Of a DNA stretch of 64,000 bases, positions 35,295-48,545 are shown in pieces. The DNA comes from Planobispora longispora (GTDB taxonomy: Bacteria > Actinomycetota > Actinomycetes > Streptosporangiales > Streptosporangiaceae). Position 1 is the first letter of the stretch, and each line of letters opens with the position of its first letter. Location of the stretch: the NCBI RefSeq assembly GCF_016863135.1, contig NZ_BOOH01000019.1, positions 186,001 to 250,000 of the forward strand, in the 5' to 3' direction. The translations under genes and the position numbers were made by a program. The notes under the pieces were generated by a model. It saw only the letters and a list, made by a program, of their open reading frames with translations. It ran no database searches and was not told the origin of the DNA.

Positions 35295-35308
35295 TGGGAG
35301 CGCTCCCA
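35295..35308. promoter_or_regulatory. CebR/CelR box at the repressor's own promoter
   Basis: TGGGAGCGCTCCCA, a perfect 14-bp palindrome identical to the cellulase-control operator of actinomycetes (CelR of Thermobifida, CebR of Streptomyces). TTGACG (35265-35270) and TACGTT (35286-35291) lie directly upstream, so the repressor would sit on the transcription start of its own gene. Confidence 0.9.
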
Positions 35309-35337: not shown

Positions 35338-36354
35338 ATGCCCGAGCTGCCTACTCTTGCCCAGGTCGCCGCTGCAGCAGGTGTCTCCCCGGCCACGGCG
35401 TCCCGGGTTCTTACCGGCTCTGTCAGAGTCACCACCTCGACGCGCCGTCAAGTGCATGACGCGATCTCCAAGCTCGGTTACGTCCGGCACCGCGCTCCGC
35501 GAGGCGGTTCAGGACGCCGCTCCGACCTGACCGTGGCCGTGGTCGTCTGCGAGCCCGCCCAGCGATTGTTCACCGAGCCGTTCTACGCCCGGGTGATCAC
35601 CACCACGGAGGAGGTCCTGGCCGCCCACGGCATCCCGCTCACCGTGATGACCGCCGCCTCCACCGCGTCCACCGTCACCACCCCGCAGCTCGTCTCCGGC
35701 GCGGTCGACGGCGTCCTGCTGGTCGGCGCGCGGGAGCGGCACCCGCTCGTGGTGACGCTGGGCGCCTCCGGCATCCCGGTGCGCTGCGTGGGCCGGCCGC
35801 CGGACGGCGTCGAGCTGCCCTACGTGGACATGGACAACTACGACGGAGGCAAGCAGGCCGCCGAGCACCTGCTCCTCGGCGGGCGGCGGGCCATCGCCGC
35901 CATCGCGGGACCGCCCGGGCTGCCGGCGGCCCGGGACCGCCTGGAGGGCTTCACCAGGACCCTCACCCAGGCCGGGATGGCGGGCGTCCCGGTGGCGTAC
36001 GGCGACTTCACCCACTCCTCCGGCGTGCACGCCGTGCAGTGGCTGCTGCGCAGGATGCCGCACCTGGACGCCGTCTTCGCGGCCTCCGACGTGATGGCCG
36101 CCGCGGCGGTGCAGACCCTGCGCCGCGCCGGGCGCCGGGTGCCCGACGACGTGGCCGTGATCGGCTTCGACGACGCCCCGATCGCCCGGCGCGCCTCTCC
36201 CACGCTGACCACCGTGCGCCAGCCCGTGGAGGAGCTCGCCGCACTCGCCGCCCGGCTGCTGCTGGGCTCGATGGGCGCCGATCCGGGCGCCGCCAAGCAG
36301 GCCGGGGCCAATCCCACGTTACCGACGGAGCTGGTCGTACGTGAGTCGGCCTGA
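35338..36354 (+). CDS. cebR: LacI-family repressor, CebR/CelR type (cellulase regulator)
   Basis: A 338-residue LacI-type repressor. The HTH and hinge are residues 5-62 (TLAQVAAAAGVSPATASRVL); the periplasmic-binding-protein-like sensor follows, with VPDDVAVIGFDDAPIARRASPTLTTVRQP near the C-terminus. In the family cellobiose or longer cello-oligosaccharides release it from TGGGAGCGCTCCCA, which occurs in its own promoter and at the GH48 gene. The kinase gene downstream begins 14 bases before this stop, so the two are co-translated. Confidence 0.85.
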   Translation: MPELPTLAQVAAAAGVSPATASRVLTGSVRVTTSTRRQVHDAISKLGYVRHRAPRGGSGRRSDLTVAVVVCEPAQRLFTEPFYARVITTTEEVLAAHGIPLTVMTAASTASTVTTPQLVSGAVDGVLLVGARERHPLVVTLGASGIPVRCVGRPPDGVELPYVDMDNYDGGKQAAEHLLLGGRRAIAAIAGPPGLPAARDRLEGFTRTLTQAGMAGVPVAYGDFTHSSGVHAVQWLLRRMPHLDAVFAASDVMAAAAVQTLRRAGRRVPDDVAVIGFDDAPIARRASPTLTTVRQPVEELAALAARLLLGSMGADPGAAKQAGANPTLPTELVVRESA

Positions 36355-37774
36355 GCCTCGCGGGTTGCGCGCGGGGGACGTGCTCACCCGCAGATACCGG
36401 CTGATGGAGCCGATCGGCAGGGGCGGCATGAGCGTCGTCTGGCGCGCCTTCGACCAGTCCCTGCAGCGGACGGTCGCGGTCAAGGTGCTGGACGCCGACC
36501 TCGGGGCGGATCGGGAGCCGATCCGCCGCGAGGCGCGGGCCACCGCCCGGCTCATCCACCCGGACGCGATCGAGGTGTACGACTACGGGGAGACGATCAC
36601 CACCCAGGGCCGCCTGGCGGCCTACGTGGTGATGCGGCTGCTGGAGGGGCGCCCGCTGGCCGAGCGGATCGCCGAGGGGCCGCTGCCCTGGCCCGAGGCG
36701 GCGGAGGTGGCCCGCAGGGTGGCCACCGTCCTGGCCGCCGCCCACGAGCGGGGCATCGTCCACCGGGACGTCACCGCCGAGAACGTGCTGCTGACCTCGG
36801 ACGGGGCCAAGCTGCTCGACTTCGGCATCGCGGCCCTCGCCGGGGAGGAGGACGACGAGCAGGCCAGCGAGTCCGGCACGCCGCCCTACGTGGCGCCCGA
36901 ACGCCTGATCCGCACGGGCGCCCATCCGGCGAGCGACGTCTACTCGCTCGGCGTGCTGCTGTTCGAGATGCTCACCGGCGGCACGCCGTACCCGGAGCAG
37001 ACCTGGGAGGAGATCGAGCAGGCCCAGCGCGAGGGGCCGCCGCCCGCCGTCGACGTCCCGGGTCTGCCGCGCGAGATCGCGGAGCTGTGCCGGCGCTGCC
37101 TGGCGCACGGCCCCCGGTCCCGGCCGCGGGCCCAGGAGGCGGCGGCCGTCCTGGAGAAGGCCCTGGCCCGGAACCAGGCCAAGGACCGGGCGGGCTCCCA
37201 CGCCTGGGTGGCGCTGGCCGGGTCGGTGGCGGTGGCGGCCCTCATCGCGGGCGTCGTCTTCTGGCTCCCCGCGGGCGGGCTCCCGGGCGGGTGGCCCCCC
37301 TCCGCCGTCGCCTCCGGCTCGACCTCGCACCCGCAGCCCACGGCGGAGTCCGGCTCCCCCGCTCCCACCTCCCCCTCTCCCGGGCCGGGCGTCGGCAGCG
37401 CGCCGCCCACCGGCGGACCGGAACGGGAACGGTCCGACGAGCCGACGGGCCGGCGGGCCACGGAGCCCGAGGCCACGCCGGAGGCGACGCCGACGGTCCT
37501 GCTGGAGACCGTGGGGTCGTCCGAGCCCACCCTCGACCGCAGCGTCCGGCTCTTCAACGCCCTGCTGGCCAAGGGGGAGAAGACGGGTGAGATCCGCCCG
37601 GACGTGGCCCTCGACCTGCGGCAGGTGCTGGCCGAGAGCGTCTGCTGCGGCGGCGACCTGGCCCGGGTCCAGCAGAAGATCGCCACCCGCTACCGCGAGG
37701 GGGCTCTCTCCGACCGGCTCCGGGCGGCCCTGAACAGCCAGCTCCTGGAGGTCGGGCGCGCCCTGAGGCGCTGA
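36341..37774 (+). CDS. Transmembrane Ser/Thr protein kinase overlapping cebR
   Basis: A 477-residue kinase. The cytoplasmic catalytic domain (about 18-280) has GRGGMSVVW (26-34), the ATP-anchoring Lys48 (VAVKVL), HRDVTAEN (141-148), DFG (160-162) and APE (YVAPERL). The catalytic-loop Lys expected two residues after Asp143 is Thr145. One membrane helix follows (about 288-310), then a Pro/Thr-rich linker and a small helical extracellular domain (390-477; two adjacent Cys). The GTG at 36341 overlaps the cebR 3' end by 14 bases, implying coupling with the cellulase repressor. Phosphorylation of CebR is a hypothesis only. Confidence 0.85.
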   Translation: MSRPEPRGLRAGDVLTRRYRLMEPIGRGGMSVVWRAFDQSLQRTVAVKVLDADLGADREPIRREARATARLIHPDAIEVYDYGETITTQGRLAAYVVMRLLEGRPLAERIAEGPLPWPEAAEVARRVATVLAAAHERGIVHRDVTAENVLLTSDGAKLLDFGIAALAGEEDDEQASESGTPPYVAPERLIRTGAHPASDVYSLGVLLFEMLTGGTPYPEQTWEEIEQAQREGPPPAVDVPGLPREIAELCRRCLAHGPRSRPRAQEAAAVLEKALARNQAKDRAGSHAWVALAGSVAVAALIAGVVFWLPAGGLPGGWPPSAVASGSTSHPQPTAESGSPAPTSPSPGPGVGSAPPTGGPERERSDEPTGRRATEPEATPEATPTVLLETVGSSEPTLDRSVRLFNALLAKGEKTGEIRPDVALDLRQVLAESVCCGGDLARVQQKIATRYREGALSDRLRAALNSQLLEVGRALRR

Positions 37775-37862: not shown

Positions 37863-38249
37863 TCAGGCGACCGTGGGGGGCGGGGTGGGGCCGGCGGAGC
37901 GCCGGACGGGCGCGTGGCGCAGGGAATCGTCGAGCGTCGCGTCGATGGGGAAGGCGTCGCTGAGCCGGGTGAGCTCCAGGAGCCGCTGGAGGAAGCCCCG
38001 GACTCCCGCCAGGCGCAGCCAGCCGCCCGCCTCGTAGGTCCGGCGCAGCCCCGCCAGGAGCAGCCAGACCCCGGTGGAGTCGCAGAACTCGAGCTCCGAC
38101 ACGTCGGCGATGATGTGGACGTGACCGTCCGCCAGCAGGTCCGTGAACGCCTGATCCAGGAGGGGAGCCGAGACCTTGTCCAGATCTCCGGCCACCGAGA
38201 CGACCACGCAGGTGCGGTAGTGAGTGACCTGGATAGACAGCTTCGTCAT
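37863..38249 (-). CDS. STAS-domain anti-sigma factor antagonist
   Basis: A 128-residue STAS protein with VVSVAGDLDKVSAPLL, the phosphorylatable serine in FCDSTGVW (about residues 55-62) and a disordered Pro-rich tail. It would be switched by an unidentified anti-sigma kinase. It is flanked by two Ser/Thr kinase genes, and STAS proteins can be targets of such kinases; a functional link is inference. Confidence 0.85.
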   Translation of the reverse strand: MTKLSIQVTHYRTCVVVSVAGDLDKVSAPLLDQAFTDLLADGHVHIIADVSELEFCDSTGVWLLLAGLRRTYEAGGWLRLAGVRGFLQRLLELTRLSDAFPIDATLDDSLRHAPVRRSAGPTPPPTVA

Positions 38250-38554: not shown

Positions 38555-38565
38555 GGACTGTCCTT

Positions 38566-38571
38566 TATGAT
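38566..38571 (+). promoter_or_regulatory. -10 element of the kinase-GH6 gene
   Basis: TATGAT, one mismatch from TATAAT, 26 bases before the ATG at 38598, which has GGGGGG just upstream. Confidence 0.5.
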
Positions 38572-38597
38572 CCTTGTCGAGTTTCGACGGGGGGAAC

Positions 38598-40880
38598 ATG
38601 GAGGCTTTGCGGGACGGCGACCCGCGCCGGGTGGGGTCCTACGCCCTTCTCGGCAGGCTGGGCCAGGGGGGCATGGGGCTGGTCTATCTCGCCCGTGACG
38701 AGGCGGGCGCCCAGGTGGCGGTCAAGGTGCTCCACCGGCACCTGACCGAGGACCCCGACTTCCGCCGGCTCTTCCGCCGCGAGGTCGCCGCCGCCCAGCG
38801 GGTCGCCCGGTTCTGCACCGCGCCGGTGCTCGCCGCCGACGCGGACGGGGACCCGGCCTACCTGGTGACGGAATTCGTCCCCGGCCCCAGCCTGGAGCGG
38901 GCGGTCCAGACCGGCGGCCCGCTGACCGGCTCCAGTCTCGACGGGCTGGCGGTCAGCATCGCGGTCGCCCTGCGGGCCATCCACGGCGCGGGCATCGTGC
39001 ACCGCGACCTCAAGCCGTCCAACGTGCTGCTCTCCCCGGTCGGCCCGCGGGTCATCGACTTCGGCGTGGCCCGGCTGGCCGACAACCGCAGCCAGGTCAG
39101 CAGCGTGCTGGTGGGCACCCCCGGATACATGTCGCCGGAGCAGGTGAAGGGGGAGCCGATCACCGCCGCCTCGGACGTCTTCGCCTGGGGCGGCGTGATG
39201 GTCTTCGCCGCCACCGGGCACGGCCCGTTCGGCACCGGGGCCGTGCCGGCGCTCCTGTACCGGGTCGCCCACGACGAGCCCGACCTGACCGGGATACGCG
39301 GCCCCCTCCTCCCGCTCGTCGCCGCCGCCCTCGCCAAGAACCCCGCCGACCGCCCGACCCCGCAGAACCTGCTCGACGCGCTCAGCGCGGGCTCCGAGGC
39401 CCTCCCCGTGGGCCCCGGCGGGCTCGGCGCGGGCCCCGCGGTTCCTCCCCCGGGTCCCGTGAACCCGGGGACGACGGGCCCGGGAGCGCCCGCCGCGGCG
39501 GGCGGGCACGTGACCCTCCCGAACGCGGCGGCCGCCGGCCAGGAGGCCCGGACCGGCGGGACCGCGGGCGCCGGAAGAGACCGCGAACCCACCCTCGGGC
39601 GCGCCCTCACGACGTTCGGCCGCCGCCGCCCCTGGGTGAGCGCGGGGGCCGTGACGGGCGCCGTGGCCGCGACGGTCGCGGTCGTCATCGCGCTGCAGTC
39701 CGGCTCCGCGGGGGACGCCGCCCCGTCCGTGTCGTCCCCCGTCCCCTCGGGTACGGCGGCGCAGGCGAGCGAGCCCGTCGCCGCCCCGCCGTCCCCCTCC
39801 GCCTCGACCCCGCCGTTGAGCGCCTCGGGCCCCAACCCCCTCGACGAGGGAGGCGTCCGCCTCTTCGCCCAACCGGACGGCGACGCCGCCCGGCAGGCGA
39901 AGCTCTGGGCCGCGGCCGGGCGGGCGAAGGACGCGGAGCTGATGACCGCCCTGGCCGAGACCCCCCAGGCCATCTGGCTGAAGGGCCCCGCCGACAAGGC
40001 CCGCCGTACCGTCTCCGCGACCGTGAAGCTCGCCGCGAAGGAGAACTCCGTCCCGGTCTTCGTCACCTACAACATGCCGTTCAAGGACTGCCGCCCGCCC
40101 GGGCCGGCCGGAGGCGCGACGGATCCCGCCTCCTACCGCTCCTGGATCGACCAGGTCGCCGAGGGGATCGGCGACGCGCGGGCCGTGGTGATCCTGGAGC
40201 CGCAGAGCCTCGTGAACGTCCCGGGGACCGCCGAGTGCGACCTGGGAGGCCCCACGGGCGCCGAGGACCGGTTCGGCAACCTCTCCTACGCCGTCGGCAA
40301 GCTCGGCGCGCTGCCCCGCACCGCGGTCTACCTCGACGGCAGCTTCGAGAAGTGGCCCAGCCTGGAGGAGATGGCGCACCGGCTCGTCAGGGCGGGGGTC
40401 ACCGAGGCGGACGGTTTCTTCCTCAACGCCAGCGGCTACCAGCCCACGGCGGGACTCGTCGACTACGGCGGCCGGCTCGCCAGATGCGTCCACGTCCAGG
40501 TGACGGAGGGGACGGAGGACTGCCTCGACGCGGAGATCGCGGCGGCGCCGGACGACCCGTCCGCGCTCCCGCACTTCGTGATCGACACCAGCCGCAACGG
40601 ACAGGGCGAGTGGGTGCCGGACAAGGAGTACGCCAAGCCGCAGACCTGGTGCAACCCTCCCGGGCGCGGCGTCGGCCTCCGGCCGACCACGTCGACGGAC
40701 TCCGAGCTGGTGGACGCCTACCTGTGGATCTCCATGCCCGGCCACTCGAACGGGACGTGCACGCGCGGCACCGACGGCCCCGAGGACCCGGTCTACGGCA
40801 CGGAGCCCCCGGGCGGCGGGGAGTGGTGGCCGGAGCTGGCCCTGGGCCGCGCCGAGCTCGCCAGCCCGCCCCTGCGCTGA
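38598..40880 (+). CDS. Transmembrane Ser/Thr kinase fused to an extracellular GH6 (cellulase-family) domain
   Basis: A 760-residue receptor-like kinase in one uninterrupted frame. The cytoplasmic kinase domain (12-275) has GQGGMGLVY, Lys43, HRDLKPSN (135-142), DFG (154-156) and GTPGYMSPEQ, so it should be active. A Pro/Gly-rich stretch leads to one membrane helix (about 348-366), a Pro/Ser linker, then residues 411-760 as a full-length GH6 domain: TPQAIWLKGPADKA, TYNMPFKDC (D497, the family proton donor), GGATDPASYRSWI, DGFFLNASGYQPT, HFVIDTSRNG (D663), WCNPPGRG and VDAYLWISMPG. Several conserved active-site positions differ: EPD reads EPQ (Q536), and the usual K-x-x-PGE-x-DG reads SMPGHSNG (S712, H716, N718). 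This suggests a binding sensor rather than a cellulase. Start ATG chosen for its GGGGGG site. It lies directly upstream of four secreted polysaccharidases. Confidence 0.88.
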   Translation: MEALRDGDPRRVGSYALLGRLGQGGMGLVYLARDEAGAQVAVKVLHRHLTEDPDFRRLFRREVAAAQRVARFCTAPVLAADADGDPAYLVTEFVPGPSLERAVQTGGPLTGSSLDGLAVSIAVALRAIHGAGIVHRDLKPSNVLLSPVGPRVIDFGVARLADNRSQVSSVLVGTPGYMSPEQVKGEPITAASDVFAWGGVMVFAATGHGPFGTGAVPALLYRVAHDEPDLTGIRGPLLPLVAAALAKNPADRPTPQNLLDALSAGSEALPVGPGGLGAGPAVPPPGPVNPGTTGPGAPAAAGGHVTLPNAAAAGQEARTGGTAGAGRDREPTLGRALTTFGRRRPWVSAGAVTGAVAATVAVVIALQSGSAGDAAPSVSSPVPSGTAAQASEPVAAPPSPSASTPPLSASGPNPLDEGGVRLFAQPDGDAARQAKLWAAAGRAKDAELMTALAETPQAIWLKGPADKARRTVSATVKLAAKENSVPVFVTYNMPFKDCRPPGPAGGATDPASYRSWIDQVAEGIGDARAVVILEPQSLVNVPGTAECDLGGPTGAEDRFGNLSYAVGKLGALPRTAVYLDGSFEKWPSLEEMAHRLVRAGVTEADGFFLNASGYQPTAGLVDYGGRLARCVHVQVTEGTEDCLDAEIAAAPDDPSALPHFVIDTSRNGQGEWVPDKEYAKPQTWCNPPGRGVGLRPTTSTDSELVDAYLWISMPGHSNGTCTRGTDGPEDPVYGTEPPGGGEWWPELALGRAELASPPLR

Positions 40881-41150: not shown

Positions 41151-41164
41151 TGGGAGCGCTCCCA
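41151..41164. promoter_or_regulatory. CebR/CelR box at the GH48 promoter
   Basis: TGGGAGCGCTCCCA, identical to the box in front of the repressor gene, just downstream of the -10. Repressor bound here would block initiation of the cellulase cluster. Confidence 0.92.
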
Positions 41165-41245
41165 CAGCCCTTCATCCTTGCTTGATCTAACGCGATGCCT
41201 CTACCAGCGGAATCGCAACGGGTCACCCCTGGAGGATCTTTTCAC

Positions 41246-44181
41246 ATGCATCCGTACCCCATGAGAGCGGGAGCGCTCCCACGGACGAAGAGGCGGAGGC
41301 GCGTCGCCGCGCTGGCGCTGCTCAGCCTGACGTCCGGGATGTTCACCGCTCTCGCCGCCTCCCCCGCGCACGCGGCCGTCTCCTGTGACGTCGTCTACTC
41401 GACGAACGACTGGCAGGGCGGATTCACCGCCAACGTGACCATCAAGAACCTGGGCGACCCGCTGGACGGCTGGACCCTCGGCTTCGACTTCCCGACCACC
41501 ACCCAGAAGGTGGTCCAGGGCTGGAGCGCGACCTGGGCGCAGACCGGAGCCTCCGTCACCGCCAAGAACCTCGACTGGAACCGCCGGATCCCCACCGGCG
41601 GCTCGGTCGGCATCGGCTTCAACGGCAGCTGGTCCGGGAGCAACCCCAAGCCGGCCGCCTTCACGATCAACGGACAGACCTGCGGCGGCGACCCGGGCAA
41701 CCAGGCCCCCAGCGTCAAGATCACCAAGCCGGTCGCGGGGGCGTCCTTCACCGCGCCCGCCACGGTGGAGATCACCGCCGACGCGGCCGACGCCGACGGC
41801 ACGGTGGCCAAGGTCGAGTTCTTCAACGGCAGCACGCCGCTGGGCACCGACACCAGCGCGCCGTACTCCTACAACTGGACCGGCGTGGCGGCGGGCGACT
41901 ACTCGATCACCGCCAGGGCCACCGACGACAAGGGCCTGACGAAGACCTCCGAGCCGGTCGGGATCAGCGTGAAGACCGACACCACGCCCGCCGTGGTCGT
42001 CACCCCCGCCACGCTCGCCGTGCCCGAGGGCGGCGACGCGAACCTGTCGGTCAAGCTCTCCAAGGCCCCGGCGGCGAACGTCACCGTGACGACCGCGCGC
42101 AGCAGCGGTGACGCCGATCTGACGGTGGACACCGGCGCCTCGCTGACCTTCACCCCGGCCGACTGGAACACCGCCCAGACGGTGAAGATCAAGGCCGCCG
42201 AGGACGCCGACACGACCTCCGGCAGCGCCGAGTTCACCGCCACCGCCACCGGGCACACCGCCGCGAAGTCCACCGCCACCGAGGTCGACAACGACACCCC
42301 CGGCGGCGACAACGAGTACGTCAAGCGCTTCACCACGATGTACAACAAGATCAAGGACCCGGCCAACGGCTACTTCTCCCCCGAGGGCGTGCCGTACCAC
42401 TCGGTCGAGACGTTCCTGGTCGAGGCCCCGGACCACGGGCACGAGACCACCTCCGAGGCCTACAGCTACTACCTGTGGCTGGAGGCGGCCTACGGCAAGG
42501 TGACCGGCGACTGGAGCAAGTTCAACGACGCCTGGGCGTCGATGGAGAAGTACATCATCCCGGCCACGGCCGACCAGCCGACGAACTCCTTCTACAACCC
42601 CTCCAAGCCCGCGACCTACGCCGGCGAGTGGGACGACATCAAGCAGTACCCGTCCAAGCTGGACGGCGGCGTCAGCGTCGGCGTGGACCCGATCGCCAAC
42701 GAGCTGAAGACCGCCTACGGCACCAGCGACGTGTACGGCATGCACTGGCTGCTCGACGTCGACAACACCTACGGCTTCGGCCGCTGCGGCGACGGCACGA
42801 CCAGGCCCGCCTACATCAACACCTACCAGCGCGGCCCCGAGGAGTCGGTCTTCGAGACCATCCCGCAGCCGTCCTGCGACACCTTCAAGCACGGCGGCAG
42901 GAACGGGTTCCTGGACCTGTTCACCGGTGACTCCTCCTACGCCAAGCAGTGGAAGTACACCAACGCCCCCGACGCCGACGCCCGAGCCGTCCAGGTCGCC
43001 TACTGGGCGCACACCTGGGCCAAGGAGCAGGGCAAGGAGTCGCAGATCTCCGCCACGGTCGGCAAGGCCGCGAAGATGGGCGACTACCTGCGCTACGCGA
43101 TGTACGACAAGTACTTCAAGAAGCAGGGCTGCACCAGCACCTCCTGCCCGGCCGGCACCGGCAAGGACAGCTCCGCCTACCTGCTGAGCTGGTACTACGC
43201 CTGGGGCGGCGCGATCGACACCTCCGCGGGCTGGGCCTGGCGGATCGGCTCCAGCCACAACCACTCCGGTTACCAGAACCCGATGGCCGCCTGGGTGCTG
43301 TCCAGCGTGGACGCGCTCAAGCCCAAGGGGGCGACCGCCGTACAGGACTGGAGCACCAGCCTGAAGCGGCAGCTGGAGTTCTACCGCTGGCTGCAGTCGA
43401 CCGAGGGCGCGATCGCCGGCGGCGCGACCAACAGCTGGCAGGGCCACTACGCCGCCCCGCCGTCGAACCTGCCGACCTTCTACGGCATGGCCTACGACTG
43501 GCAGCCGGTCTACCACGACCCGCCGTCCAACCAGTGGTTCGGCTTCCAGGCCTGGTCGATGGAGCGCGTGGCGGAGCTGTACTACGCCACCGGCAACGCC
43601 GACGCCAAGGTCGTGCTGGACAAGTGGGTCAAGTGGGCCACCGACAACACCACGATCAACGCCGACGGGACCTACCAGATCCCCTCGACGCTGGTGTGGA
43701 CCGGCCAGCCCGACACCTGGAACCCGGCCAGCCCCGGCTCCAACGCGAACCTGCACGTCAGCATCCGCGACTACACCACCGACGTGGGCGTGGCCGGCTC
43801 CTACGCCAAGGTCCTGATGTACTACGCGGCCAAGTCCGGCGACACCAAGGCGCGCGACGTCGCCAAGGGTCTGCTCGACGGCATGTGGAAGAACAACCAG
43901 GACCCCAAGGGCGTCTCGACCACCGAGACGAAGGCCGACTACAACCGCCTCGACGACCCGGTCTACGTCCCGGCCGGCTGGACCGGCAAGATGCCCAACG
44001 GCGACGTGATCGACAGCAACTCCACCTTCCTGTCCATCCGGTCCTTCTACAAGAACGACCCGGACTGGCCGAAGGTGGACGCCTACCTGAAGGGCACCGG
44101 CCCCGCGCCGACCTTCACCTTCCACCGGTTCTGGGCCCAGGTCGACGTGGCCGTGGCCCTGGCCGAGTACGGCCGGCTCTT

Positions 44182-44188
<7 letters not shown>
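41246..44188 (+). CDS. Secreted reducing-end exocellulase, CBM2-Ig-Calx-beta-like-GH48
   Basis: A 980-residue secreted enzyme. Signal peptide 1-43 (basic RTKRRRR, cleavage after SPAHA); CBM2 cellulose-binding domain 44-147 with the Cys47-Cys146 pair; a bacterial Ig-like domain (about 154-243); a Calx-beta-like domain (about 248-350); and the GH48 catalytic domain (357-980). TTSEAYSYY carries the family's catalytic acid (E404). GH48 enzymes are processive cellobiohydrolases acting from reducing ends and are the hallmark of strong cellulose degraders. GGAGGA precedes the ATG at 41246. A second CebR box lies within codons 8-12. First of four polysaccharidase genes. Confidence 0.95.
41268..41281. 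promoter_or_regulatory. Second CebR box, inside the GH48 signal-peptide codons
   Basis: CGGGAGCGCTCCCA differs from the full box only at the first base; the inner 12 bases are a perfect palindrome. It lies 117 bases downstream of the promoter box, in the coding sequence. It could form a roadblock or a repression loop with the upstream box. Confidence 0.8.
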
Positions 44189-46836
<2,648 letters not shown>

Positions 46837-46979: not shown

Positions 46980-48545
46980 ATGAGAGCACGACTCACCATC
47001 GCGGCGCTCGCCGCGACCGTCGCCTCGGTCTTCGTCGCGGCATCCCCCGCCCACGCCGACACCGGCATCCACGTGAGCGACGCGAAGATCGTCGAGGCCG
47101 ACGGCACACCGCTCGTCATGCGCGGCACCTCCCACGCGCACACCTGGTACCCGTCCCAGACGAGCTCCTTCGCCGGGATCAAGTCCCTGGGCGCCAACGC
47201 CGTACGCGTGGTGCTCAGCGGTGGCCGGTGGACCGCCAACAGCGCCGCCGACGTGGCGAACGTCGTCTCGCTGTGCAAGCAGAACAAGCTCATCTGCGTG
47301 CTGGAGAACCACGACACCACCGGGTACGGCGAACAGAGCGGCGCCTACACCCTCGACCAGGCCGTGAACTACTGGATCAGCGTGAAGAGCGCGCTGGAGG
47401 GCCAGGAAGACTACGTCATCGTCAACATCGGCAACGAGCCGATCGGCAACAACGCCGTCACCCCGGACTGGACCACGGCCACCGCAGGCGCGATCAAGCG
47501 CATGCGGGAGGCCGGGTTCGACCACGCGCTCATGGTCGACGCCCCCAACTGGGGCCAGGACTGGCGCTTCGCCATGCGGGACAACGCCAAGACCGTCTTC
47601 GCCGCCGACCCGGACCGCAACACGATCTTCTCGATCCACATGTACGGCGTGTTCGACACCGCGGCCGAGGTCACCGACTACCTCCAGGCGTTCCAGACCG
47701 CCGGGCTGCCCCTGGTCATCGGCGAATTCGGGTTCAACCACTCCGACGGCGACCCCGACGAGGACACGATCATGGCCCAGGCGCAGGCGCGGGGCCTGGG
47801 CTACTTCGGCTGGTCCTGGAGCGGCAACGGCGGCGGCGTCGAGTATCTCGACCAGGTCACCAACTTCAACGTGAACGCGCTGACCACCTGGGGGCAGCGC
47901 CTGTTCAACGGTCCCAACGGCATCGCGCAGACCGCCGTCGAGGCCAAGATCTACGGCGGGGGCGGCGACCCGGACACCGAGGCGCCCACCCGGCCCGGCA
48001 AGCCCGCCGCCTCCGCCGTCACCTCGACCGGGGCCACCCTGACCTGGACCGCCTCCACCGACAACCGGTCCGTCGCCGGTTACGACGTGTACCGGGGCGC
48101 CACCAAGCTCGGTTCCTCGGTCACGAACTCGCTCGCCCTGACCGGCCTGAGCCCGGAGACGGCCTACACCGTGCACGTCGTCGCCCGCGACGCCGCCGGG
48201 AACGTCTCCGCCGCCTCCGAGACCGCCTCGTTCACGACCACCTCGACCCCGCCGAGCGACTGCGCGGCCGCCTACAAGCTGGTCAACTCCTGGCCGGGCG
48301 GCTTCCAGGGCGAGGTCACGGTCACGTGCGCCGCCGCCGTGACCTCGTGGAAGACCACGCTGACCTACCCGGCGGGCGTGAAGGTCACGCAGAACTGGAG
48401 CTCGGCCCTGTCGGCCTCCGGCACCGCCTTCACCTTCTCCAACGCCGCCTGGAACGGCTCCGTCCCGGCCGGCGGCTCGACCACCTTCGGCTTCATCGCC
48501 TCCTGGACCGGCACGGGCGCCCCGCCCGCGCCCGTCGTCTCCTAG
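46980..48545 (+). CDS. Secreted beta-mannanase-type GH5 enzyme, GH5-FnIII-CBM2 variant
   Basis: A 521-residue secreted enzyme. Signal peptide 1-27 (SPAHA); GH5 domain (about 28-325) with GTSHAHTWYPSQ, proton donor E153 (NIGNEPIG) and nucleophile E249 (IGEFGF); FnIII (about 335-420); CBM2-like domain (about 424-521). The HAHTWYP and ENHDTTGYGE segments are typical of actinomycete GH5 subfamily 8 endo-beta-1,4-mannanases rather than cellulases. The CBM2 is unusual: its second Cys lies in strand 3 (TVTC) instead of at the C-terminus. The last 110 coding bases before the end are identical to the GH10 gene. Confidence 0.9.
   Translation: MRARLTIAALAATVASVFVAASPAHADTGIHVSDAKIVEADGTPLVMRGTSHAHTWYPSQTSSFAGIKSLGANAVRVVLSGGRWTANSAADVANVVSLCKQNKLICVLENHDTTGYGEQSGAYTLDQAVNYWISVKSALEGQEDYVIVNIGNEPIGNNAVTPDWTTATAGAIKRMREAGFDHALMVDAPNWGQDWRFAMRDNAKTVFAADPDRNTIFSIHMYGVFDTAAEVTDYLQAFQTAGLPLVIGEFGFNHSDGDPDEDTIMAQAQARGLGYFGWSWSGNGGGVEYLDQVTNFNVNALTTWGQRLFNGPNGIAQTAVEAKIYGGGGDPDTEAPTRPGKPAASAVTSTGATLTWTASTDNRSVAGYDVYRGATKLGSSVTNSLALTGLSPETAYTVHVVARDAAGNVSAASETASFTTTSTPPSDCAAAYKLVNSWPGGFQGEVTVTCAAAVTSWKTTLTYPAGVKVTQNWSSALSASGTAFTFSNAAWNGSVPAGGSTTFGFIASWTGTGAPPAPVVS
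48420..48529 (+). repeat. 110-bp segment identical to 50147-50256 (CBM2 of GH5 and GH10)
   Basis: The two CBM2-coding 3' ends are identical over 110 bases, including synonymous positions, although the rest of the modules differ by many substitutions. This indicates recent gene conversion or duplication. Confidence 0.85.

Follow-up and report, generated by a model that had tools for sequence, protein, structure and literature searches.

Two described proteins are functional parallels to the one reported here. According to the available part of the source, the anti-sigma factor RsgI6 of Clostridium thermocellum senses through a glycoside hydrolase family 10 (GH10) domain whose activity is very low but which retains polysaccharide binding (PMC4711584). 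The chitinase-related receptor-like kinase CHRK1 of tobacco has, as far as the accessible text goes, an ectodomain that is inactive through the loss of its catalytic Glu (PMC10573068). Here, we have analyzed a 64,000-nucleotide stretch of Planobispora longispora (Streptosporangiaceae; RefSeq assembly GCF_016863135.1, contig NZ_BOOH01000019.1, positions 186,001 to 250,000 of the forward strand), hereafter the window, and describe in it K-GH6, a receptor-type Ser/Thr kinase of 760 amino acids (aa) with a pseudo-GH6 ectodomain, encoded at 38598..40880 on the + strand (translation, Pfam). The fusion recurs in several genera of the family, the catalytic residues of the GH6 part have been lost in step with the joining to a kinase, and the ectodomain has stayed under constraint. 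On balance, and with some reservation, we favor the reading that a dead cellulase has been reused as the sensor of a receptor kinase, which would bind beta-glucan and signal in response. A sequence-only reading of the same DNA, made earlier, had known of no described system with such a fusion; narrow searches of the open-access literature found no account of a kinase-GH6 protein.

Architecture and distribution of K-GH6

The reading frame runs from an ATG at 38598 to a stop codon ending at 40880 and has no internal stops; the mechanically called open reading frame (ORF) opens earlier, with a TTG at 38574. Residues 15-260 (38640..39377, + strand) form a Hanks-type kinase domain, which scored 130 bits for Pkinase against a Pfam cut-off of 31.7 and contains the catalytic Lys43, the HRD Asp137 and the DFG Asp154. 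Residues 440-724 (39915..40769, + strand) form a catalytically degenerate GH6 domain (Glyco_hydro_6, 188 bits against a cut-off of 27), supported also by alignment with Cel6A and by a fold model. Between them, a scan confined to the linker placed a single predicted transmembrane helix at approximately residues 347-368 (39636..39701, + strand), where hydropathy over 19 residues is highest (Kyte-Doolittle mean 2.07). The helix is preceded by FGRRRPW and followed by a predicted stalk of ∼58 residues; by linker hydropathy, it would separate the kinase from the sensor. The sequence-only reading had proposed a kinase, a membrane helix and a GH6 domain in one frame, and translation, Pfam and linker hydropathy bear this out, with the helix as a prediction. 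Every motif that it had listed was recovered (Lys43, HRDLKPSN, DFG, TPQAIWL, YNMPFKDC, DTSRNG, WCNPPGRG and DAYLW), and the activation loop reads SPE.

No PASTA repeats were detected in K-GH6 by Pfam, and NCBIfam NF033483 (175 bits against a cut-off of 450) indicated that it is not PknB-type. The AfsK equivalog NF053615 of NCBIfam reached 243 bits against a cut-off of 1300, over the kinase part only, so K-GH6 is not a member. No match to the anti-sigma domain RsgI_N was obtained in Pfam or NCBIfam at E 0.001, a kinase standing in that place, and the antisense ORF at 38565-40745 matched no Pfam family. The genome of P. longispora itself gave 63 matches to the whole protein, nearly all of them kinases, and contains three GH6 domains, two of which, besides that of K-GH6, sit in frames without a kinase match. 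Among 19 other kinases scanned in this genome (of ∼60), four carried WD40, two SBP_bac_3 and one ricin-B lectin, and twelve had no recognized second domain; sensor swapping onto this kinase type therefore seems routine here. The ricin-B lectin kinase (L078) and the two SBP_bac_3 kinases (L081 and L082) are other putative receptors for sugars or small molecules. Judged by its sequence, the kinase of K-GH6 is an ordinary receptor-type Hanks kinase, and the unusual feature appears to be the recruitment and inactivation of an entire GH6 catalytic domain.

The fusion was found in at least 25 of 150 sampled genomes of the family (that of P. longispora included) and in at least 29 copies. Neighborhoods were fetched for the strongest matches only (31 loci), and weaker GH6 matches, some of them in long frames, were left unchecked for a kinase; both figures are therefore minimum numbers. 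The sequence-only reading had raised the possibility of an assembly error. As the frame is intact in the window and at least these 25 genomes carry the fusion in a single frame, it reflects neither chance nor misassembly. Two copies each were present in three fetched loci. Adjoining pairs of copies on one strand were seen in L096, L100 and L103 (Microtetraspora and Microbispora), and the paired copies of L096 and L103 are clearly unlike in their active-site substitutions.

Of the 79 loci in a set of named genomes (the best 80 of 569 relatives), 34 carry the fusion, in 37 copies, and the other 45 have no kinase in the frame; 'kinase-less' here means that there was no kinase BLAST match within the same frame. 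The 37 copies and the window give the 38 kinase-fused domains that are compared below with the 45 kinase-less ones. It should be noted that the sets of 29 and 37 copies overlap in strains and are not additive, and that ectodomain BLAST matches below 150 bits were left out of the analyses of residues, tree, kinase motifs and the ratio of nonsynonymous to synonymous substitution rates (dN/dS). The fusion is borne by Planobispora, Planomonospora, Microtetraspora, Sphaerimonospora, Microbispora, Sphaerisporangium and Nonomuraea, and, among the best 80 of 569, the named relative closest to the window protein was Planobispora takensis, with 79% over the ectodomain. Of the 38 fused sequences, 37 have intact kinase motifs, the sole exception being L110 (Microbispora sp. 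H13382), in which one K-GH6 copy has most of its kinase part out of frame in the assembly, either through a sequencing error or as a pseudogene.

An order-wide search (297 genomes) gave 74 matching genomes, all of the same family, and the matches outside the family in a class-wide search (394 genomes) came from six genomes of one genus, in frames of 399-526 aa that are too short for the fusion; kinases were not sought directly in these searches, and a fusion that had arisen separately with another GH6 would escape their E cut-offs (1e-70 and 1e-90). Within those cut-offs, the fusion has spread inside one family and is unseen outside it. In a maximum-likelihood tree of 83 domains, a single branch with support 100/100 parts the fused from the kinase-less rows, with one state change; the root is not fixed, and the midpoint root of the drawing falls among the fused rows. 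We take the direction to be from enzyme to pseudoenzyme because all other relatives are intact.

Catalytic residues, fold and constraint

In the available part of the source, TrCel6A has D221 as its acid and, acting via a water wire, D175 as its likely base; the -1/-2 sugars are bonded by K395, E399 and D401, and the substrate also interacts with W135, W269 and W367 (PMC6091422). For mgCel6A, the accessible text names Asp117 as the acid on the analogy of TfCel6A (PMC5968413); the pairing of D175 with D79 and the equivalence of the acids between TrCel6A and TfCel6A rest on these papers. When the window domain was aligned with T. fusca Cel6A, Asp117 was found to be replaced by Gln, Lys259 by Ser, Glu263 by His and Asp265 by Asn, and Tyr73, Asp79, Asp156, Trp41, Trp162 and Trp231 were kept (Cel6A numbering). 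The codon of Gln536, which turns EPD into EPQ at the position of the catalytic acid, lies at 40203..40205 (+ strand), and codons 712-718 (40731..40751, + strand) include Ser712, His716 and Asn718 where Cel6A has Lys259, Glu263 and Asp265. For the other positions, we assume that Y169, W135, W269, W367, K395, E399 and D401 of TrCel6A correspond to Y73, W41, W162, W231, K259, E263 and D265 of TfCel6A; the K-E-D spacing agrees. This loss of catalytic residues had been missed by the sequence-only reading.

Six residues (Y73, D79, D117, K259, E263 and D265) were scored across the comparison set, with Gln at E263 counted as kept. All 45 kinase-less relatives keep the six (Gln for Glu263 in 6 of the 45), whereas 26 of the 38 fused domains have lost five, 8 have lost four and 4 have lost all of them. 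By residue, the acid is lost in 37 fused domains, Lys259 in 38, Asp265 in 33, Tyr73 in 34 and Asp79 in 10, and position 263 has a residue other than Glu in 35 (34 with Gln scored as kept). The sole named fused sequence with the catalytic acid, from Nonomuraea sediminis (L129), still lacks four other residues. In the first data set, the acid was absent in 28 of 29 fused copies, and the motifs were intact in the three nearest kinase-less relatives (L065, L067 and L068). Because the established GH6 mechanism needs the lost residues, we take the activity to be gone: the GH6 part of K-GH6 is probably a pseudoenzyme, with a predicted loss of hydrolysis. GH6 annotation alone would score proteins of this type as cellulases, the window domain passing the Pfam cut-off.

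Among the cleft aromatics of the 38 fused domains, Trp occupies W231 in all, W162 in 31 (Tyr in six more) and W41 in 21, and Asp is found at D156 in all. Six ectodomain Cys are invariant in the 38 fused domains, which fits an extracytoplasmic location; five of the six are also present in all 45 kinase-less enzymes. Mean column identity was 65% among 29 fused ectodomains. An AlphaFold2 model of the ectodomain, built with an alignment (A3) that took in 53 of the 83 ectodomains, reached a pLDDT of 93.6 and a pTM of 0.93. By Foldseek, the PDB entry closest to it was M. tuberculosis Cel6 with cellobiose (TMt 0.86); the solved structures that matched best were GH6 endoglucanases, several with bound cello-oligosaccharide or analogue. 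According to the model, the GH6 sequence family and fold are retained in the window domain.

Over 17 pairs (the window pair and, of 21 pairs with more than 78% identity, the 16 closest), dN/dS by the NG86 method, which is crude at high G+C, was 0.24-0.56 for the ectodomain, 0.13-0.36 for the kinase (one pair with only 60 comparable kinase residues) and 0.48-0.90 for the linker, and in every pair the ectodomain was below the linker. By these estimates, the ectodomain stays under purifying selection. The sensor idea of the sequence-only reading is strengthened by this residue loss under constraint, by the six Cys in 38 of 38 and by the three cleft Trp kept in the window.

Genomic surroundings and competing explanations

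In the window, K-GH6 lies directly upstream of the cellulase cluster GH48-GH9-GH5-GH10, as had been claimed. The first gene of the cluster encodes a GH48 cellulase with CBM2 (41195..44188, + strand), followed by GH9 (44302-46836) and GH5 (46980-48545), all identified by Pfam; GH10 was also confirmed. On the other side lie a LacI-family regulator (35338..36354, + strand; Pfam), which we take to be CebR-like, and a second Hanks-type kinase (36341..37774, + strand; Pfam, synteny), whose gene overlaps the end of the LacI gene. Divergent from K-GH6 is a STAS-domain gene (37863..38249, − strand) for an anti-anti-sigma-like protein of 128 aa with an FCDSTGVW motif, which is above the Pfam cut-off and is a candidate phosphorylation target, with Ser58 in DSTG as the putative site. 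The order LacI, second kinase, divergent STAS, K-GH6, GH48, GH9 and GH5 is conserved in five genomes (the window, two more Planobispora, one of them P. takensis, and two Planomonospora), and the STAS gene is 80-83% identical in the four other syntenic loci. Exact TGGGAGCGCTCCCA boxes, presumably CebR-type, are located upstream of the LacI gene (35295..35308, + strand) and of the GH48 gene (41151..41164, + strand). No such box, with up to two mismatches allowed, was found before the K-GH6 gene, and in a footprint of the receptor promoter across the five syntenic loci, conservation was mostly on the STAS side and a clear operator near the kinase start was not seen. Cellulase induction 'alongside CebR', as proposed by the sequence-only reading, has its support in the local synteny of Planobispora and Planomonospora; the missing box before the receptor and the neighborhoods of the remaining fusion genomes speak against it. 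When architectures and neighbors are counted, as it had suggested, the fusion recurs, and cellulase neighbors occur in only 5 of 25 fusion genomes.

Several observations weigh against a beta-glucan sensor linked to cellulases. In 20 of the 25 fusion genomes, there was no match above 60 bits to the GH48, GH9, GH5 or LacI of the window within the fetched 15-20 kb (in L048, the receptor gene stands at a contig end, with its upstream side outside the data), and BLAST detected no counterpart of the STAS gene next to K-GH6 in other genera. The fetched stretches of these genera hold a gene that we judge from its sequence to be leuA-like in seven loci and one that we judge to be era-like in four; 19 neighbors scanned there belonged to GNAT, MFS, NlpC/P60, solute-binding protein and other families, with no glycoside hydrolase among them. 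Six of the 25 fusion genomes have neither GH48 nor a second GH6 (G034, G057, G062, G077, G094 and G096; G094 is only 78% complete). Among the 10 of 25 fusion genomes covered by domain counts, these six have, in the same order, 9, 1, 9, 2, 1 and 0 CBM2 and 1, 0, 0, 1, 1 and 3 PF00150 (GH5-type) domains, and the four GH48-bearing ones have 13-22 and 3-13, respectively. Moreover, the congener G112 has lost the receptor yet kept the cellulase block: its locus L073 (G112:C30:55000-70000) contains the LacI-kinase-GH48-GH9 block, and K-GH6 is a two-frame remnant of the last ∼54 codons, apparently a natural gene loss; the STAS gene seems to persist there without the receptor, as judged by the antisense frame. 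Within the ectodomain, not only the acid but also the Lys and Glu/Asp that contact the -1/-2 sugars are gone, and the affinity for cellulose may therefore be weak or the specificity changed; in 17 of 38 fused domains, Arg, Asn or Asp takes the place of W41. Finally, the dN/dS of the ectodomain exceeded that of the kinase in 13 of 17 pairs and was highest, at 0.56, in the window pair (kinase 0.36, linker 0.62).

A universal tie of K-GH6 to cellulase genes is ruled out by the non-cellulase neighborhoods and by the genomes without GH48 and other GH6. The hyphal-tip glucan (CslA/GlxA) is unsupported as a general ligand: GlxA-type PF09118, used as a marker for the hyphal-tip glucan system of Streptomyces, was found in 2 of 25 fusion genomes vs 19 of 125 others, with cslA itself unsearched. 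CslZ is a GH6 enzyme. In six genomes (G058:C21 near 141762-143008, and also G005, G071, G101, G123 and G141), a GlxA-type E-set domain lies ∼1 kb or less from a GH6 domain, in pairs that resemble the glxA-cslZ order of Streptomyces; cslA was unsearched there. The CslA-GlxA system is described in the available part of PMC11022532.

A rival reading is a pseudo-GH6 receptor kinase whose ligand is not derived from cellulose (the cell's own wall polymer, hemicellulose, a foreign exopolysaccharide or a small molecule), the cellulase linkage in Planobispora being secondary. Such a receptor is possible, though we doubt it. The replacement of polar -1/-2 residues beyond the acid, the substitutions at W41 in 17 of 38, the 6 of 25 genomes without GH48 and other GH6, and neighborhoods unconnected with cellulose in other genera all point that way, but the W231-equivalent Trp is kept in all 38 fused domains and an aromatic residue at W162 in 37. 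In addition, GH48 was commoner in fusion genomes (19 of 25 vs 57 of 125; Fisher p 0.008, uncorrected for relatedness), and the scarcity of GlxA-type genes noted above argues against one such ligand. An ectodomain that serves as a protein-binding scaffold, for example, as a docking domain for secreted cellulases, would explain why the fold is kept while the polar chemistry of the active site is lost. We consider it improbable, as cleft aromatics would have little reason to persist in a scaffold and no gene partner was seen in a conserved neighborhood outside the two genera.

Still less credence is given to the idea that the GH6 part is a decaying, functionless passenger and that the kinase alone matters. 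Lost catalytic residues, the loss of the gene in G112 and a dN/dS above that of the kinase in 13 of 17 pairs would be expected of a passenger, but a ratio that stays under 1 and under that of the linker in all 17 pairs, the six Cys in 38 of 38, the 65% mean column identity and the retention of the domain across several genera would not. It is also very hard to maintain that K-GH6 is an active cellulase tethered to the membrane, with hydrolysis either sensed by the kinase half or regulating it. Against it stand the Gln in place of the acid in the window, the loss of the acid in 37 of 38 and of Lys in 38 of 38, and the absence of at least four of the six residues from every fused sequence examined; these outweigh a GH6 fold that is complete in the model, the presence of the Tyr73-, Asp79- and Asp156-equivalents in the window protein, and an acid Asp kept in 1 of 38 fused domains (1 of 29 in the other set). 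The active-enzyme reading of the window GH6 was rejected on these residue losses.

The preferred reading, a dead cellulase reused as a beta-glucan sensor, can be put as a mechanism. A cytoplasmic Hanks-type kinase would be joined by one membrane helix and a stalk to an extracellular GH6 binding domain, whose dead cleft would hold the end of a beta-1,4-glucan chain or a cello-oligosaccharide uncut. Binding may then alter the packing of the ectodomains such that the kinase domains trans-phosphorylate, a model drawn from other receptor-type Hanks kinases. In Planobispora and Planomonospora, where synteny suggests some control of cellulase genes, the output would probably enter the neighboring regulatory block, with the STAS protein, from its position, as the likeliest substrate, and might thereby tune the GH48-GH9-GH5-GH10 cluster beside CebR-type repression. 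A precedent for kinase control of anti-anti-sigma factors is PknD, for which the available part of the source describes phosphorylation of Rv0516c and an effect on the SigF regulon (PMC4601284). Outside Planobispora and Planomonospora, K-GH6 has different neighbors and presumably also different targets. In its most complete form, this reading would posit that a Hanks kinase of the Streptosporangiaceae lineage captured a GH6 cellulase once, that the enzyme was killed and its glucan cleft kept, and that the resulting family of bacterial kinase-type receptors for beta-1,4-glucan chains came to be connected, in Planobispora and Planomonospora, with a STAS partner switch and the cellulase cluster beside it; we offer this fuller scenario only tentatively.

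Comparison with known systems

To our knowledge, it is not settled how insoluble cellulose is perceived by aerobic actinomycetes at a stage when soluble cellobiose has yet to reach CebR, and a dead-cellulase receptor kinase, if true, would be a direct and testable entry to this question. K-GH6 would also illustrate how, in evolution, catalytic residues disappear together with fusion to a kinase, a change that can be traced position by position across one bacterial family.

As far as the available parts of the sources describe them, RsgI6 resembles K-GH6 as a membrane protein with an extracytoplasmic GH domain as sensor (predicted for K-GH6), and CHRK1 as a receptor kinase with an inactivated glycoside-hydrolase-like ectodomain. 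However, RsgI6 has an RsgI-type anti-sigma segment instead of a kinase and GH10 instead of GH6, and belongs to Clostridia, whereas CHRK1 is a plant protein with a class V chitinase-like ectodomain. Class V chitinase-like ectodomains such as that of CHRK1 are GH18, and plant receptor kinases have the opposite domain order. The AfsK-, PknB- and PknD-like kinases of actinomycetes have in common with K-GH6 the kinase family and the order of N-terminal kinase and C-terminal sensor, and the receptor-type kinases of the same genome with WD40, SBP_bac_3 or ricin-B behind the kinase resemble its layout by domains alone; K-GH6 differs from the AfsK-, PknB- and PknD-like kinases in having a pseudo-GH6 sensor and no PASTA, NHL or WD40. 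With T. fusca Cel6A and M. tuberculosis Cel6, the ectodomain shares the fold and the sequence family, but, in contrast to these GH6 endoglucanases, the window protein has the acid, Lys259, Glu263 and Asp265 replaced and is predicted to be anchored in the membrane behind a kinase.

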